DNA of 64,000 nucleotides, taken from Eublepharis macularius. Its lineage: Eukaryota; Chordata; Lepidosauria; Squamata; Eublepharidae. The position numbers were made by a program, and so were the translations under genes. The stretch's first letter is position 1; the number at the start of each line of letters is the position of its first letter. The stretch lies in NCBI RefSeq assembly GCF_028583425.1, contig NC_072807.1, positions 33,113,001 through 33,177,000 on the forward strand, read 5' to 3'. The notes under the pieces were generated by a model, which saw nothing but the letters and a program-made list of their open reading frames with translations, was not told the origin of the DNA and did not search any database. This document shows positions 2,904 to 60,132 of the stretch, piece by piece.

Positions 2904-4309
2904 CTATCAGCAAGGACAGAGAAAACAGGGCCTTTACTATATTCATTCATTCATGAAGAGCGAAGGATAAAGGATACGTAATTTGTATCCTGCCCTAACT
3001 CCAAAAAGTTCAGGGCAGCATGCACTTTATTTATCATTTGTTCATCTCCTTCATTTATAATTCCCCTTTCTCAGAGACTCAAGGCAGATTACAATATATA
3101 TATATATTTTAAAAATTTAAAAATCATGCTCACATTTTATCCCCACAACAATCCTGGGAGGTAGACCAGGCTTAGAGAGAACAACTGGCCCAAAATTGCC
3201 CAGCGGGCTTCCAACTTGAGTCTCCTCAGTCCATAATGTGATACTTTAACCATTAGACCACACTGGCTCTCACCATCTAAAACCAGTACAGAGATTTTTA
3301 TTTCTTAGCAGGTTGTCTGGTTTTGAGTTTAGATTTTAATATGGACTAACATAACTACTTGCAGCCTTTGTGGATAGGAAAGGCAGTGGAGGCAGAGAGA
3401 GTGAAGGAACTCTGCACATGCCCAGGGGAAAATTCATATGGCTGACTTCTACATAGCGACTGATACCAGTACTTCACTGGAGAGGATAATTCCAGAAGAT
3501 TAGCCATGTTAATCTGATGCAGCAAAATACAGTGGAACCTTAAAGACTGAACAAATCGATTTCAGCGCCAACTTCTTTGTGCTCATGCCTTGCATCTGAG
3601 GTATGACAACTGATACTGAAAAACATTTTGTTAGTCCTTAAGGTACGACTGGACTCCTGCCTTATTTTCCTGGTAAGGAGAGAACTCTTTCATATCATGG
3701 GGAACTTTTTACCATTACTTTATGCCTTTGGCATCTGCTCCAGCACTGATATCAATCATTTACCAGTGACAATTCTGTACACACTTAAGGGTCATCTCTT
3801 ATTTCCAATCACAAACATTTGGCCTTGGCTTGGACAACCAACTCAAGCACAGGAAATTCCTAGAGAATTAAGAGCAATGCTTGGAGAGCAGAGGGAGCTC
3901 TGCAGAGATGTGCAGCAATAGAGCCCACTTTCTATGTCCTCCAAGGGAATGGATTTCTGTACTCTAGAGATCAATTGCCATTCCAAGAGATCTCCAGGCC
4001 CCACCTGGAGATTAGCAACCCTGGCCTCTACCCACACCAACAGCAGTCACACTGTGTAACCTGCCTTGAAAGAAAGCTCTGCACATGCTCAAGGAAACAT
4101 TTTGCTGCTTCTTGAGATATCTGGCCCATGCCCTGACATTGGTACCAGCTATCCACTGGTGAGAGAATTCTGCACACGCCCAGAGGAAGTTTCTGTGAAA
4201 CTTCACACGCACCTACCCTCTCGCCCTGACACCAGTGAAGCCTCCTGCAACACAACACAACACTCTGCCTGCAAGAAAGCAAAGGCAGAGGACTCCCCCT
4301 CCCCTCAAA
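2904..4309 (-). other. PPCDC: PPCDC 5' intron or leader region with old repeats
   Basis: This separates the first coding exon from the CpG-rich promoter and is probably intron 1 of PPCDC. It holds a minus-strand LINE tail with (TA)n at about 3060-3115, a reversed tRNA-type SINE at about 3120-3275, a worn PLE-type end at about 3500-3665, and the right-hand end of a TAGGGTTGCCAG-type hAT element at about 3958-4025. The donor of a non-coding exon 1 could not be fixed. One candidate lies at about 4209-4216 (complement reads GTAGGT). Confidence 0.45.
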
Positions 4310-9419: not shown

Positions 9420-19958
<10,539 letters not shown>

Positions 19959-20993: not shown

Positions 20994-21610
20994 AAAAAAT
21001 AGGAGACAGAATCGGGTATTGGCAAGCTCTTTTTTCATTTTCATTTGTGTGCGGATTTTTAATATAAACGTAATATAAAGCATTATTGCTATCCAAAACC
21101 ATTTCTGTGAACCAATTTCAGCAGTTCAACTTAAGTAAATTTCTTATTGATGGCAACTATATGGAGTCTAACATTTTTATCATACAGTAGATTCCATCCA
21201 TTCACTATACTTTTCTAACTAAGTTGTCCTACATGCAAGTACATGTTTTTACTGTTGTCTGTCTTCTGTGCTGTTCCTGTAAGTTTGCTATTAAAATACA
21301 ATCAAAAAATAGGAGACAGAATCGGGTATTGGCAAGCTCTTTTTTCATTTTCATTTGTGTGCGGATTTTTAATATAAACGTAATATAAAGCATTATTGCT
21401 ATCCAAAACCATTTCTGTGAACCAATTTCAGCAGTTCAACTTAAGTAAATTTCTTATTGATGGCAACTATATGGAGTCTAACATTTTTATCATACAGTAG
21501 ATTCCATCCATTCACTATACTTTTCTAACTAAGTTGTCCTACATGCAAGTACATGTTTTTACTGTTGTCTGTCTTCTGTGCTGTTCCTGTAAGTTTGCTA
21601 TTAAAATACA
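20994..21610. repeat. Perfect tandem duplication, period 310 bp, two copies
   Basis: The 300 bases from 21001 to 21300 recur base for base at 21311-21610, joined by a 10-base linker that repeats the AAAAAAT preceding copy 1. Each copy runs from AGGAGACAGAATCGGGTATT to TTTGCTATTAAAATACA. No coding content is recognised. The unit could be a retroelement tail, since it ends A-rich, but I cannot assign it. Confidence 0.95.
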
Positions 21611-28125: not shown

Positions 28126-28283
28126 CCAAGGTAAAGGTAAAGGTGCAAGCACCGAATCATTACTGACCCATGGGGAGACATCACATCATGACATTTTCTT
28201 GGCAGACTTTTTGTTGCGGGGTGGTTTGCCATTGCCTTCCCCAATCATCTACACAGGTGAGACAAAATTCTCCTCCAGCTAAG

Positions 28284-28504
28284 AAAAGAGCAAGAGTCCA
28301 GTAGCACCTATAAAACTGACAAGATTTGTGGTAGGGTATGAGCTTTCGTGAGTCACTGCTCACTTCTTCAGATATCCAGTATCTGAAGAAGTGAGCACAA
28401 AAGCTCATACCCTACCACAATTTTTGTTAGTCTTATAGGTACTACTAGACTGTTGCTCTTTTCTACTGCTACAGACAGACTAACACAGATAGCCATCTTG
28501 ATCT
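28284..28504. mobile_element. PLE-type inverted-repeat insertion with hammerhead core (type B)
   Basis: Two facing copies of the end are joined at a short centre near 28371-28383. Flanks TCCTCCAGCTAAG (28271-28283) and TCCTCCACCTAAG (28505-28517) form a 13-bp target duplication with one difference. The minus-strand core looks intact: CTGAAGA (complement of 28365-28371), stem II of GTGAG and CTCAC, GAAA (complement of 28344-28347). Confidence 0.7.
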
Positions 28505-28857
28505 TCCTCCACCTAAGGTGCTACTGGAATCGAACCTTGCTACACTACTTCATCAAGAAGACCCTGAATTGCCCAAAGTCTATACATCTGTCTGTCCCAC
28601 TTGGTGTAGGACACTTAGGGCAAGAACTGGTCTCTCTGAACACCTAGAGGAGCTTAAAAGTAGCCCAGATATATGGTAAAGCTAACATTTTCATACTAAT
28701 GATGACCTTGTCTTGTATCTCTTCTCCAGGTGACTTGGAGATGGGGCAGATGTCTTGTGTGAAATGTGTTTTTCTCCTGTCCTTCATGTACTTATCTAAT
28801 GAGGTTAGCAATCTCACTTACATCTACTAGTCATGCATCTCTCTTCTTCTTTTGCTG

Positions 28858-29872: not shown

Positions 29873-30876
29873 GATACTCTATATACATTCCTGTACTTGG
29901 TGGCTTAAATTGTACTCAGGTCCCACCTGGAATATGGCATGCCCTGTAACCATGAAACCTAGAGCATCCCTCAGTATGCTTAGCATGGATTTTCTCTTGC
30001 CACCACAGAATGATCACAACAGGCTAGCCAGCTGCTGGCACTTGCCCACTCCTTCACACCCTCTCTGTCACAAGGGACAGGGCTTCTAGCTGAAAGGATC
30101 AGACTTCGAGGCAGGTTAGACCCATGCACACCCCACACATACACACCGCCATTTTCAAAAGCACCTGCTGACCCTGGATCTCTGTTGCATTGAAGGCCAC
30201 AAGGTTCGCATGCTCGTTTTATGTTCTTCTTTTGGTCTACATTCAATCATTGTGCCAGCAGCTGCCCTTGGGTGTCCTGTTTGAAAATTAGGTGGTAGCG
30301 ATAATAAAAGGCTTTATTACTAGAGAATCTGTCTGCTGCACTGAGTGTCCATGTATTCATGGATGCTGTGTGCGCTTGAGTGGCAGTAAGCCCCACTGAA
30401 CTCTTACTCCCACATAAACATGCAGACAGCTGAAGTTTATCTAGTTTGTGCTCTTAGAATAGTAAAATATGAAAGTCTGGTGTTGATGGTGATAATTAGC
30501 TCGATGGGAAGGAACAATTAAAGAGCAGAAGATAACAGTAACTCCCAAAATACTTTCATGTATGAGAGTGTTGCCAGGTGGGAAAACATAGAAATGCCAT
30601 TCACTCATGCCTGAAAGCCTCCAGGCAGAGGCAGTTATAGCAGCCATGACCCACACACAATGGCTTCATTGTTGCTGTCTGCAACGAGGTGAATGCGATC
30701 CTTCATGCCTGACAGATGCTTCTTATATCAGCAGGTCTGAAAGAAGAAGGTTTGATCAGGCAATGTCACTGTTCTCTAGCGATGGACCACAAAGTCAGCT
30801 TTAAGTCTCCACAGCTGAAGGAAAGAGAACGAGGTTGTTGTGGGTTTTCCGGGCTGTATTGCCGTGGTCTTGGCAT

Positions 30877-30927
30877 TGTAGTTCCTGACGTTTCGCTAGC
30901 AGCTGTGGCTGGCATCTTCAGAGGTGT
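30877..30927 (-). ncRNA. Hammerhead ribozyme motif (type A), left arm
   Basis: Mirror image of the right-arm motif on the minus strand: CTGAAGA is the complement of 30915-30921 and GAAA the complement of 30891-30894. Stem II reads GCCAGC with GCTAGC, one pair weaker than the right arm. Confidence 0.55.
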
Positions 30928-30993
30928 GGCACCAAAAGACAGAGATCTCTCAGTGCCTGAGAGATCTTTGAGAGATCTCTGTCTTTTGGTGCC

Positions 30994-31045
30994 ACACCTC
31001 TGAAGATGCCAGCCACAGCTGCTGGCGAAACGTCAGGAACTACAA
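30994..31045 (+). ncRNA. Hammerhead ribozyme motif (type A), right arm
   Basis: CTGAAGA (31000-31006), perfect six-base stem II GCCAGC/GCTGGC (31008-31013 with 31021-31026), GAAA (31027-31030), then CGTC. The ACGT forms a minimal, self-complementary stem III, so the predicted cut follows GTC. Stem I pairs CCT before the core with AGG after it. It looks like a complete minimal type I core. Confidence 0.65.
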
Positions 31046-31252
31046 TGCCAAGACCACGGCAATACAGCCCGGAAAACCCACAACAACCATCGTTCTCCGG
31101 CCGTGAAAGCCTTCGACAATACATCGAAAGAGAACGAGGCTTGCAACCTTGAGCCAAGAAGGGGCACCCACGTTAACAGGACAATCCTAGGCAGAGTTAT
31201 GGCCCTCTGTCCAGTGAAATCAATGGACTTCTAAGGGTGCAACTCTGTTTAG

Positions 31253-35805: not shown

Positions 35806-35952
35806 GGGCCGTTTCCACACGGCTTACCTTTTGCCGGAACACAGCGTCTTCATGCGTGAAATTGCTCTAGGAAGATGCTGTTACCACGCCGTGCGATTTC
35901 ATGCGAGAACACGCTGTGTTCCGGCAAAAGGTAAGCCATGTGGAAACGGCCC
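35806..35952. mobile_element. Snap-back element, 147 bp
   Basis: Long inverted arms with an almost perfect match, from GGGCCGTTTCCACACGGCTT and ACCTTTTGCCGGAACACAG to their complement at the right end. No clear target duplication; family unassigned. Confidence 0.7.
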
Positions 35953-36120
35953 TGGAGTCCTATAGTACCTTAAAGACTAACATGTTTTTATTCTAGAACA
36001 ATTGTTTGAGGACTAGCGTATCTTACAATAAAAACATGTTACTAATAATAACCGTATGCTTATATACCACTCTTCTGGACAGGTTAGTGCCACACCCAGA
36101 CCAGTTAACAAAGTTACTGT

Positions 36121-40586: not shown

Positions 40587-40605
40587 TGATCTTCTTTATA
40601 TTGCA

Positions 40606-40737
40606 AGAGTCCAGTGGCACCTATAAAACTAACAAAATTTGTGGTAGGGTATGAGCTTTCGTGAGTCACAGCTCACTTCTTCAGATGCTAAACAGACAGA
40701 TACCTACAGACAGCCTAACATGGCTCCCCATCTTGAT
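40606..40737 (-). mobile_element. PLE end with intact-looking hammerhead core (type B)
   Basis: On minus: CTGAAGA (complement of 40678-40684), stem II GTGAGC/GTGACTCAC pairing GTGAG with CTCAC, GAAA (complement of 40657-40660), then GCTCATACCC. A single copy with no inverted partner. Confidence 0.7.
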
Positions 40738-41761
40738 CTCCTTCTTTAAATTGCTTATTCCTCCTCCAGTTCCTTATTTGAATGATAAAAAAATAACAAG
40801 CAGTTGTCATAGCCATTGATTTATTGGGCAAACAGCCAAAACAAGAAGGGGGAAGAAGGGGAAAATGTCGAAAATTAGCCTGGAAGTGCCAGAAATTGAG
40901 CACGTACATGCATGCATGTGCACACGTGCACACACACACAATAATTATATGCTAGGGAACAAATACAATACTAATAAAAGTAGACAAATGTTCACATATT
41001 GGTACAATATAATTGGGAAAAACAAACTATAATGATAGTCATCGATAACCAGTTACAAACGAGACCCAAATAAAATATTGGCTTTACACATTCGAAACAT
41101 GCACACAACTGTTATTACTATAAAGATCAATGGCTACAATCCAGTATTGGAGAGGGGGCAGAGCAGTTCTAATCAAAATTCAACCGTGGTGGTCCATTTA
41201 TGCTGGCCTCAGGAGAGGACCTCCAGAAATCCTTTTATTCTAACCTTGCCAGCATAGAGATGTCTGCTCACTCAAAGAGAGAGTTTTGTGGGTGTGTGAT
41301 AAATTGGGTGCAGAAAGAAGCAAATCGCTTCAAATTTGAAGTTCCGTTCTTAGGAAGTAACCCCTGAGATGCATGACAAAGCAGCCATTCCCAAAATACT
41401 AGAATTTGGGGGCACCCAATAAAGATGATGGGCTATAGAATCGGGAATGAAGTATTTCACTCAATGAATTATTAAATTATAGGATTCACTGCCGATACTG
41501 ACGGCCAGGGGCATAAAGGGCTTTGAAAGGTGATTATATAGATTCCTGCTCCCCCCACATTGTCTTCTGTTTGTGAAGTACCATTTTCTGCATTGTTTAA
41601 TGTATGTCCAACTTCTTTTCTGCTCCCCTCCACACAAATTACTCTAATCATAGTGCAATTAAGTTGCTCGTTAGATGTCATATCCTATTGATCACATTGA
41701 TTTACACTATGTAATCTGTCTTGAGTCTCAGAGAGAAAGGCGGACTATATATGAACAACTG

Positions 41762-56265: not shown

Positions 56266-58129
56266 TTGTCCACAGTGGCATTTACGGCATTATTCCTTGT
56301 TAACACTCATAGCCCGGAAAATGGCGATCAGCTCTTCAATTGCGCCAATCCTCCACCACCATTTCCAGGCTTACATATGTCTTGAGACAAGATGTTTCCC
56401 GATGTACATATGCCTCCTGACATACTATCCCATATGAACGGATCTCCTCTTTGGAGGCCCTGAGCTGTTTGTCCCTGAATAAGGTGAGTGGTCAGGAAAG
56501 ATGGGGGTCTCTTCTGCCTTGGCAGTGTTGTCCTGGAACCCCTTGCCCGCGCTGATTTCCTTCATGGCAAGTCTTCCTTCCCTACTAGGTTCTAACATCC
56601 CTTTCCGTCCAGTCTTTGTACTAAGGTTGCTGCCTGCCTCTTGTACTTTAACATCTTTAATCAGTACTGTGGTTCTTTCTAATTATTATCTGTTGCGGCC
56701 CGTTGGTTTTACTGCTGAGGCTTTAGCGATCCATTTGATTCAGGCTTTTTCGTTAATATTATCGATCTTATTTCTTCCGATTTATTTTGGCTATTTATAT
56801 CTAATATTTTGGCTATTGTGTTGGAATTATATCAGTATGGGTGGGATATTCTAAGCTATTTGTAGACCACTGGATAAGTGAAACCTTCACTGTTTCATGT
56901 TAATACACTATGCATTTTGCTTGGCCTGCCTTTAATAGCTTCCTCTTTTATCATCCTAATACTTAACATGTTATTATTTGATCATCTTTTTTGCAATGGC
57001 AGCTTTTATTGTTGCTGCCAGGCACAGAATTCTCTTTTTTTATTACTAGGCTGGTTTCTGTGGGACTGTTTGTTTTTTTACTAGCCACTGGAGATGTAGG
57101 TATTGTGGTCACCATTGGTCCTGCTATTTTTACAAAGTTTTGTTGCCATTGTTGTTTGCAAGAATTATAATTTTGAGTGGGTCAGGGAAAAAATTATAAG
57201 CTGTCTTGGACGAGAGCAGGACAGAAACCCTCTGCCGCAAATTCTGTTAGTCTTATAGGTGCTTTCTGGACTCTTGCTCTTTTCTACAGAAACCTTCTGG
57301 TTATTTGTTTAAAAATTTTAAGTCCACTGAAATCAACAGACTTAGAAAGATGTGAGGACTGTACCAGACTATGCAGTTAAGTTTTCTCTTGGTGAGGCCC
57401 GCAGTATAGAATGCCTCTCTTGAACCTGCTCTAGAGGGGGCCAGTGGTTCAATGGCATACTTTCTTAGGAGCGATTTTTAAATTCCTGCAGCATAGTGAT
57501 TAAGTGGTTGGGTTGCAAATCAGCTCTCTGCTGGTTGGAATCCCGAGACTGCTGTGAGCTCAGCAGGTGGCCTTGGGGAAGCCACTCCTATCAGCCCAGC
57601 TCCCCAGCTGCTTTGTGGAGATAATAACAACACTGTGAGTGGAGGCACTAATCTGTCTAGAAGAGTGGTGCATATATATTTGCACAATTTGTTGTTGTTT
57701 TTGTTAATAATAATAATAAACTTCATTTTGGAACTTGATTGCAAAGTAACTTATACACATGACACTGCCTTATAATGAATCAGACAATTGGTCCATCAAG
57801 GTCCATATTGTCTACCTAGGCTGGCAGCTGCTCTCCAGGTCTCAGGTGCAGTTTTTTCACATCACCTATTTATTGCCTGCTCCTTTTTCCTGGAGATGGC
57901 AAGGATCGAACCTGGCACCTTCTGCATGCCAAGCAGAGACTCTTCCACTGAGCCTCCCTGACATCCTCCCTCCTCAGAACAAAACGCAGGCATTTCACAT
58001 GTTTATAAAATTGATTTTTATATAATATACGTAATGATTTTAGATAATTGATATAACTTCGGCTTGTAGCATTACTGAGCCACAGGTTACATTTTATCAC
58101 CGCTCTGCGGTTTAGGCAGACGCGAATCC

Positions 58130-59620
58130 TAATTTCCCCCCCCCGCCCCCAGCTCGCCCCGTTCTTTCTCCGTGGTGATCGACCTGTCAGAAAGGGGGCG
58201 CCAACTTTGGGGTCTCCACCCACAATCCGGTAAACCGCTGCAGCAGCTTGGCCTGCGGAAGTCAGCTTCTCAGCGCGCAGAGAAGAGAGCGCCGCCTTTT
58301 GAAGCTGCATTTGAAGGCACAGGAGGCAGTAGAAAAGTTGGCAACTCAAGCCCCTTGCAAGTTAGCACTACAAGCTCTGGATCTGCTGCTCGGCATCGCC
58401 ACGGCGAGTCGACCAGTGCTGCAGATGAACCCATAACCGAGTCTGCGAAGGAGCCTGCGTTGGCGCGCACAAGAGCAGGAGCTGGGTGCAAAGCTGGCAA
58501 CCCAAGCCCCGCGTCGCAACCGTCGCAAGCTCCCGGGTCTGGTGCTTGCAGTCGCCACGGCGCGCTGACCGTTGCTTCAGATCGCCCCGTCTGCGAAGGG
58601 GGCTGCATTGGAACGCACAAGAGCAGGCGCCGGGTAAAAAGTTGGCAGCCCAAGTCTCCAGGCGCAGCCGCCGGCTCTGGTGCTGGTCCAGCCAGGGCGC
58701 GCCCGGCAGCTGCTCCAGAGCGACCCTCCCGGGAAAGAAGCCCCCCAGCCTGGGGCCAGGCTGGAAGTGCCCCGCTGCGCCCTCCCCTCCCCGCTGGGAG
58801 CTCCAGCCCAGCCCCGGGTGGGAGGCGGGGAGAGGCGTCCCCTGGCGCAGCGGGAACGGCTGCCGGCACTTTGCTGACACCAGCGGTTCTGAGCGCCACG
58901 CCGTCCTTGAGCGGGCCGGATCCGCCGCCCGCGAGAAGCCCCGTTTGGCTGGCTGGCTGGCTGCGGGGGGGACGTGGCCAGCCGCCGCCGCCAGAGAGAG
59001 CCGGAGAGGAGCGCCGTCCCCGCAGCGTCTCCTGGACGAGAGAAAAGTCAGAGCCGGGGAGGACGGGATGCTCTGATCTGTAGTGATCTGCCATGAAGAA
59101 GCTGAGCTGGGCAGGGAAGAGGAGGAGGAGGGGGGAGGAGGGGGAGGGCCGGCTGGTGACACCCACCCCCGAGCACACAGCAGGGCTCTTGGGGGGCTGC
59201 TGAGAAGCCCGGCATGAAGCACGCCGGGGCAGCCGGGGCTCAGCGGGCACTGCCAAGCCAAGCTGCTCACCCAGACCCGAGGATCCAGTCTTCCCCGGGA
59301 CCTGCCGGCTTGGCGACTTTTTGACTCGGGGGCTGCATGGAGACCCCAGCCTGGCTCTGATCTCTCCCCCTCCTCACGAGAGCTCTGGAGCAAGAAGCTG
59401 CCCTCCGAGATGCACCCGGGAGACTTCGAGCCAGTGGGCTCCTCCTCGTCGGTGGCTGCCTGGCCCCAGGAGACGACTCCCGAAGGAGCAGAGCCCGCGC
59501 CGGTGCTGCCCACCACAGCCCAGTCCCGGATGGAAAACTTCAGGAAGGTGAAGACATCCGAGGAGGAGAGCCCCTTGCCCTTCTCCGACTTGCCCTCCGA
59601 TGTGGTGGAGATGAAGGTGA
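58130..59620. promoter_or_regulatory. RPP25: CpG island shared by RPP25 and possibly an upstream SCAMP5 exon
   Basis: About 1.5 kb of strongly G+C- and CpG-rich DNA ending inside the RPP25 coding region. On the minus strand a good donor (GTCTGG followed by GTGAGCAGC) sets a possible exon edge at 59271. In human, RPP25 and the SCAMP5 first exon are head to head and overlap, so this is a plausible second SCAMP5 promoter. Open frames of 300-460 codons on both strands are products of the composition. Confidence 0.6.
58320..58690. repeat. Three-copy tandem repeat, unit about 150 bp, in the CpG island
   Basis: Landmarks AGTTGGCAACTCAAGCC, AGCTGGCAACCCAAGCC and AGTTGGCAGCCCAAGTC recur near 58336, 58492 and 58640. 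Shared neighbours are CTCTGG, CGCCACGGCG and CGCACAAGAGCAGG. Copies are diverged. Confidence 0.7.
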
Positions 59621-60132
59621 AGGAAGGGAGCAAGATCCGGAACCTCATGGGCTTTGCCATGTCCAAGATGGGACTGGAGGCCACCAGGCAGATTGTCTTC
59701 AGCGGCTGCGGAAGGGCGGTCACCAAAACGGTGACCTGCGTGGAGATCATGAAGAGGAAACTGGGTGGGCTTCACCAAGTCACCAAGGTGCAGTACAAGA
59801 CTTTGCTGGAGGTCTGGGAGAACAAGGACCTCCAGCCCGATGGCCACAGGGAACACCTCACCGTCCACAAGAACGTGCCCTCCATCTGCATCCTGCTGTC
59901 CAAGGATCCGCTGGATCCAAACCAGATGGGTTACCAGCCCCCTGATCATCCAGAGGACCTGTGGGTGGATGAAACAGACACGCTGGAGGAGAGGTCTGGC
60001 TCTTTCCCAAAGGGGGTCAAGAGAAGGTTGGCATCGCCACCACATGAAGAAGAAGAGGAGCAGCATGCCAAGAAGCCACCATTGCAGGTACAAGACCATC
60101 AGGAGGACTTGGGGACCATGGCGGGTTGTTGA
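59530..60132 (+). CDS. RPP25: RPP25, RNase P/MRP subunit p25 (Alba family), single exon
   Basis: Rpp25 forms a heterodimer with Rpp20 that binds the P3 domain of RNase MRP RNA and RNase P RNA. It acts in the nucleus and nucleolus in pre-tRNA and pre-rRNA processing. From the Met at 59530 the protein has 200 residues (human about 199) and begins MENFRKV as in human. The Alba domain spans about 25-125: basic strand KVKEGSKIRNLM (29-40), FSGCGRAVTKTVTCVEIMKR (57-76), and NVPSICILLSKDPLDPNQMG (115-134), which closely follow human. The C-terminal third is acidic and Pro-rich and diverges. The frame extends upstream to another ATG at 59410, adding 40 Pro/Ala/Ser-rich residues. I prefer 59530 because it matches the family N-terminus. 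No intron, as in mammals. Confidence 0.93.
   Translation: MENFRKVKTSEEESPLPFSDLPSDVVEMKVKEGSKIRNLMGFAMSKMGLEATRQIVFSGCGRAVTKTVTCVEIMKRKLGGLHQVTKVQYKTLLEVWENKDLQPDGHREHLTVHKNVPSICILLSKDPLDPNQMGYQPPDHPEDLWVDETDTLEERSGSFPKGVKRRLASPPHEEEEEQHAKKPPLQVQDHQEDLGTMAGC

Follow-up and report, generated by a model that had tools for sequence, protein, structure and literature searches.

Described systems with similar ends

The closest described system is PAc, the Poseidon-type Penelope-like element (PLE) of Anolis carolinensis, in which the ORF starts at stem II of a hammerhead ribozyme and the ribozyme cuts 26 nt past the start codon (PMC11167929). In vitro, both target strands are cut and extended, reverse transcription (RT) starts 111–118 nt into the ORF, and two internal RT start sites bound a tail of 30–40 nt; start sites showed no evident difference between the strands, and the protein was modelled as a dimer with AlphaFold2 (PMC11167929). 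The ribozyme needs this protein for cutting and is dispensable for insertion in vitro. The later steps of PLE integration were left unproven in that study, despite the two-strand cutting and the two start sites, and its main text contains no head-to-head inserts bearing one tail each (PMC11167929).

Inverted pLTRs, mostly head-to-head and with palindromes at their junctions, are reported for Penelope elements of rotifers (Pen2a_Av and others) in the available part of PMC3846280, where a 31-bp tail is optionally present on one of the inverted pLTRs and the target duplications are short (9 bp in Pen2a). Inverted pLTRs with one tail are, on this part of the paper, already published. The rotifer examples differ from the inserts described below in that they contain an ORF or captured DNA, self-priming is favoured as their origin, and the word hammerhead is absent from the accessible text of that paper. 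Animal retrozymes with type I hammerheads are likewise small and hammerhead-bearing, with PLEs as candidate movers, but as far as the available text of PMC7229834 describes them they are direct tandem repeats that give rise to circular RNAs, whereas the copies found here form an inverted pair. A search of the open-licence literature returned no statement that two arms regularly use two start sites.

A palindromic insert with an exact target duplication

The window (the whole 64-kb stretch of Eublepharis macularius DNA that was analysed) contains a 291-bp insert at 30835-31125, insert A, that is flanked on both sides by an exact 14-bp target duplication (GAAAGAGAACGAGG; left copy at 30821-30834, right copy at 31126-31139), the score of which was equalled by 7 of 5000 random placements. 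Its facing arms (30833-30952 and 30969-31088) are 120 nt long and 99% complementary, with a spacer of 16 nt and a single mismatch (30897/31024). The initial annotation had recognized two facing copies of a PLE end between exact 14-bp duplications, and its coordinates proved exact. Insert A is a very small addition to an already known kind of PLE insertion.

The left arm (30835-30955, minus strand, sense leftwards) is a PLE end without a tail, and its outer end lies 86 nt from the start of the CTGAAGA motif. The right arm (30969-31125, plus strand) carries a 39-nt tail and extends 125 nt from the same motif, to +120 of the ORF. The outer ends are unequal by the length of this PLE tail, an excess given as 37-39 nt because the left junction has two bases that belong equally to insert and target. 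Between the arms lies a junction filler, CC-TGAGAGATCT-T (30956-30968), the 10-mer of which recurs at the inner end of the right arm and, in inverted orientation, at that of the left arm; the junction carries the palindromic stretch AGAGATCTCT. Three long matches to the right arm were found within the window, namely the left arm of the same insert and both arms of a second insert, B (see below). A 19-mer and a 26-mer found no match in a viral contig collection, and the 19-mer had three matches among bacterial genomes that are probably due to chance.

The inserts in the window consist of ends only, without RT or endonuclease, which sets them apart from PAc, and neither an RT nor a GIY-YIG endonuclease domain was found in a Pfam scan of 10 of the 76 listed long frames. 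Elsewhere in the window, an open frame at 59218-60129 has an Alba domain and resembles the ribonuclease P subunit p25 (RPP25), and a 310-bp unit at 20994-21610 is present as two tandem copies of 100% identity, either a very recent duplication or an assembly artefact.

ORF start and hammerhead cores

From the inside outwards, each arm presents CTGAAGA, a single additional base, stem II and GAAA, followed by UC at the cut, and the core pattern CTGAAGA-N-stem II-GAAA-CGTC is found in both arms of insert A. The minimal core of the right arm (31000-31034, plus strand) has the six stem II pairs and the CGTC context that had been noted earlier, with a predicted cut after 31034, 26 nt past an ATG codon (31006-31008) within stem II. 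The core of the left arm (30887-30921, minus strand) is not its equal, because the base change at 30897 breaks one stem II pair. From the ATG in stem II of the right arm, the frame is open to the end of the insert (31006-31125, plus strand) and would represent the first 40 codons of the PLE ORF; the corresponding frame in the left arm is open for 27-28 codons before it runs into the flank. The view that the insert has no coding part is not borne out, as the arms hold the start of an ORF.

A strict scan of the window, in which the core had to be accompanied by stems I and II, gave four distinct positions: one in the right arm of insert A, one in each arm of insert B and one at 28371 in a third insert, C. 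No positions were returned from 60 simulated windows, and the left arm of insert A fails the scan by one stem II pair. The type I arrangement (CTGANGA, stem II, GAAA and UH, with stem I) accordingly occurs in one arm each of A (the right arm) and C and in both arms of B, self-cleavage being a prediction in each case.

At the gathering score, no Rfam hammerhead model matched anywhere in the 64 kb (the sole match was tRNA-like), and none matched at E<=10 over 360 bp, so the covariance-model check proposed in the initial annotation came back negative. The missing match does not exclude a hammerhead, because PLE hammerheads are usually minimal and without helix III, according to the available part of PMC6155905. 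Ten matches were obtained at E<=10 over the 360 bp, eight of them to miRNA families and two to bacterial-type sRNA families, most likely because any long hairpin fits such models. The best of them pairs the hairpin at 30894-31027 with MIR8565, at a sub-threshold 84 bits (gathering score 136).

Folding the RNA of insert A gives a single hairpin of ~120 bp (-254 kcal/mol; mean of shuffles, -89), while the hammerhead region folded alone gives a z of -1.08, with 24 of 200 shuffles equally stable. A transcript of either strand does carry one sense core, as had been expected, but that core is paired to the opposite arm and buried within the hairpin, and the left core lacks one stem II pair. Since the PAc ribozyme needs its protein and is not required for insertion in vitro (PMC11167929), and since the cores of insert A are paired in the hairpin, they may be viewed as passengers.

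These observations bear on the suggestion that the insert is a small, self-cleaving, mobilised RNA comparable to a retrozyme. A hammerhead core on each strand would suit this idea. Retrozymes, however, have direct tandem hammerhead copies that bound a monomer, and the copies in insert A are inverted only, so that no transcript has the two sense cores needed to free a monomer. With the core hidden in a hairpin, the Rfam hammerhead models unmatched, and the PAc hammerhead inactive without protein and dispensable for in vitro insertion (PMC11167929), a retrozyme-like origin appears very improbable.

Other inserts in the window

Eight head-to-head pairs are present in the window, drawn from the PLE group of insert A and from a second PLE-like group. 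Insert B (19197-19867) belongs to the same PLE family as insert A; its left arm (minus strand) has a tail, its right arm (plus strand) has none, and it is flanked by an exact 12-bp target duplication (TAGATTCAGGAG; 19185-19196 and 19868-19879). The arms match over 171 nt (95%), plus a 29-nt stretch beyond a 42-nt length difference, and are separated by a centre of 211 nt. In both arms, ATC replaces GTC at the hammerhead cut. Judged from these sequences, the source of insert B probably already had ATC, unless the arms were homogenised later, and the hammerhead of the inserted RNA may already have been altered.

The second group was found via the strict-scan position at 28371, and further arms came from profile searches. 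Its plan is CTGAAGA, an extra base, stem II and GAAA, then GC instead of CG before UC, so that these sequence-distinct PLE-like ends have a hammerhead-like core of GAAA-GC-UC rather than GAAA-CG-UC; the spacing of their two end sites is similar to that in the first group. It includes four pairs, all with a tail-less left arm on the minus strand and a tail on the right arm, on the plus strand. Inserts C (28283-28504) and H (12203-12411) are head-to-head pairs with target duplications of 11/12 (28271-28282 and 28505-28516) and 10/11 (12192-12202 and 12412-12422), respectively. The right arm of insert D (40605-40740) consists of the tail only, between duplications of 13/14 (40591-40604 and 40741-40754), and that of insert E (11191-11327) is ~45 nt including the tail, with an AT-rich, imperfect duplication that starts at 11177 and 11328. 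Random placements equalled the duplication scores in 7 (B), 13 (C), 9 (D), 33 (E) and 43 (H) of 5000 trials. The expectation that the two-arm layout with target duplications would recur was therefore confirmed by five more cases within the 64-kb window (B, C, D, E and H, with imperfect duplications in E and H).

The two remaining pairs are old. In J (3490-3674), the left arm (minus strand) has a tail and the right arm (plus strand) has none, and its target duplication is not significant (705/5000). K (697-866) has tail-like sequence on both arms and no target duplication, random placements scoring as high in at least 2525 of 5000 trials. The window also holds the single arms F, G, I, L and M, of which G alone had a significant duplication in the random-placement test, whereas F, I, L and M showed none. 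J, K, the five single arms and the weak fragments at 35951-35988, 28514-28548, 609-679 and 868-933 were excluded from the duplication-flanked count, and the random control windows were drawn without purging PLE copies or tandem repeats.

Three of the smaller features are described here in their own right. The arm G (57221-57299) is a very short single-arm insert, a 51-bp PLE-like arm without a tail between 14-bp target copies that agree at 13/14 positions. Next to insert C, within 28268-28550, is a PLE-like fragment that is older and weakly matched (28514-28548, E 0.053), as if PLE sequence had been the target. At 609-933, old PLE-like arms are clustered in alternating orientation, and the cluster holds K together with an arm that meets K tail to tail.

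One tail per pair

Of the pairs whose target duplication is significant, all six (A, B, C, D, E and H) carry the tail on one arm and lack it on the other. The pairs without a significant duplication divide: J fits the pattern and K apparently does not, for an overall 7/8 with K counted. Both ends of K match tails (scores reached by 24 and 8 of 3000 random pieces), and it may be two separate inserts. When the tail arms of the seven fitting pairs were compared with the other tails of their own group, 0-11 of 3000 random pieces reached the same score. The 45 nt past the tail-less arms resemble tails no better than random pieces do (A 188, B 2778, C 2858, D 1866, E 1866, H 1127 and J 2053 of 3000), the value for insert A being low because of an 8-nt match between target and tail. 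The tail-less side of insert E had looked by eye like a decayed tail, a resemblance discarded since random pieces were as good in 1866 of 3000 cases.

The two end sites recur at similar distances. Where the exact core is present, the interval from CTGAAGA to an outer end without a tail is 86 nt in A, 89 in B, 88 in C, 79 in D, 93 in E and 82 in H, compared with 125 nt in A and 121 in both B and C for an outer end with a tail (the arm of C is internally short by 8 nt). In ORF coordinates, the near end falls at +81 to +85 and the far end at +120 (A) or ~+116 (B), close to the RT start of PAc, and the tail of ~35 nt that ends near +120 is comparable to the PAc tail between its two start sites (PMC11167929). 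An ORF start at stem II with a cut 26 nt past the start codon, two end sites 30-40 nt apart and a short target duplication are traits of Poseidon/PAc-type elements, and all of them were seen here; the target duplication is present in A, B, C, D, E and H and not in J and K. By this anatomy, as distinct from sequence identity to PAc, inserts A and B are classed as ends of a Poseidon/PAc-type PLE.

At even odds and with independent arms, the probability of finding one tail in every one of six pairs would be 1/64. Because the rule was spotted in these data and was not formulated in advance, it is treated as a moderately strong lead.

The recurrent ends also bear on self-priming, the idea that a single cDNA folds back at its end and serves as its own template. 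Such a fold-back would produce the head-to-head layout and sits well with the palindromic stretch at the junction of insert A, and it is argued for the inverted pLTRs of rotifer Penelope elements, on an antisense template, in the available part of PMC3846280. A cDNA copying itself does not account for arms that stop at two different recurrent sites, one with and one without the tail, in all six duplication-flanked pairs, nor for the filler at the junctions of A and D. In insert D, the tail arm spans profile positions 94-128 and its partner spans 2-85; the two have no template stretch in common, so neither could have been copied from the other and fold-back copying cannot account for this insert. 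In insert E, the shared stretch is ~12 nt. Self-priming is therefore considered unlikely.

Target sites and junctions

Poseidon/PAc-type elements prefer, without absolutely needing, an AT-rich target with ATT at the cut, and this preference was not seen here. The A+T fraction of the target duplication is 0.50 in A, 0.58 in B and 0.50-0.79 in the other five inserts, and ATT directly follows none of the 14 inferred cuts in these seven inserts. CTT directly follows all four inferred nicks of A and B, and a shared 3-mer at any tested offset occurred in 12 of 200000 paired random draws. As a common cut motif CTT was rejected, being absent from all 10 nicks in C, D, E, H and G, and for the A/B family alone it remains a weak hint.

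At the tail-less junction of insert A, target and template match over 8 nt (33-35 of 20000 random cases), and primer annealing may have aided this insertion. Such matching was dismissed as a general rule for tail-less ends: the other six of seven inserts tested had no match (combined p 0.17), with the group consensus serving as template for D, E and G and an approximate template position for H. The junction fillers are a 10-nt copied segment in A and ~17 unassigned nt in D. End joining often leaves filler of this kind.

Proposed integration mechanism

The palindrome probably records a single integration event of a Poseidon/PAc-type PLE in which both cut strands of the target primed reverse transcription. 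The PLE endonuclease would cut both target strands with a 14-nt stagger, leaving two target 3' ends that would each prime reverse transcription of PLE RNA. One of them would start at the far site, where the tail ends (about +120 of the ORF), and the second at the near site (about +82, in CCCACAACAACC). The two cDNAs, each extended for ~120-160 nt, would pass the hammerhead, reach the pLTR and be united through end joining, with a short filler copied in between, after which gap filling would yield the target duplication. Two template copies would be used, either two RNAs or two pLTR copies on one tandem RNA; in A, B, C and H two templates are needed because both arms copy the same stretch. That insert A was made by two-strand priming, with two templates and a joining step, is what we infer from its layout.

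The initial annotation had proposed a special step in PLE integration, specifically a template switch. The first part is retained; as to the second, priming from both cut strands seems more probable than a template switch with one cDNA turning back, in view of the two end sites and the arms of insert D. Another possibility is that a pre-existing inverted pair served as the source and its full transcript was retrotransposed, which would make insert A a member of a short non-autonomous family. The RNA of insert A is a very stable hairpin, and whole-unit copying could apply to insert A alone. A and B, however, differ in arm length and centre, and C, D, E and H each have a centre of their own; because the centres differ, the six inserts do not derive from one inverted source, and copying of a unit is judged quite improbable.

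The layout also has a parallel outside the PLEs. In LINE-1 twin priming, a variant of target-primed reverse transcription, inverted segments lie between target duplications, and the segments usually copy different stretches of the template, the second site not being fixed. In the inserts described here, by contrast, the ends fall at recurrent sites and the arms mostly overlap.

A broader proposal is that PLE integration is regularly paired, with a dimeric enzyme, two templates and both strands cut, one strand primed at the far site and one at the near site. This we advance tentatively, as a possibility a little short of an even chance. The dimeric model of the PAc protein would suit a paired reaction. 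A strict rule of one site per strand is, by analogy, not what the PAc assay would predict, as the start site was similar between the strands (PMC11167929).

Significance

PLEs have been called a third class of eukaryotic retroelements, and what is at stake is how their integration is completed. The inserts in this window link the two-strand cutting and two start sites of PMC11167929 with the inverted pLTRs reported in the available part of PMC3846280: where a target duplication marks a single event, the insert has one arm per start site, one insert has arms that cannot derive from each other, and the tail count can be applied to any PLE-bearing genome. What merits testing is the paired-start rule. 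The palindromes would yield long hairpin transcripts, which may be raw material, or a seed, for small RNAs. If the paired reaction is true, the 'optional tail' and the 'inverted pLTR' would be one signature, and end-only palindromes would arise when both cDNAs terminate early.
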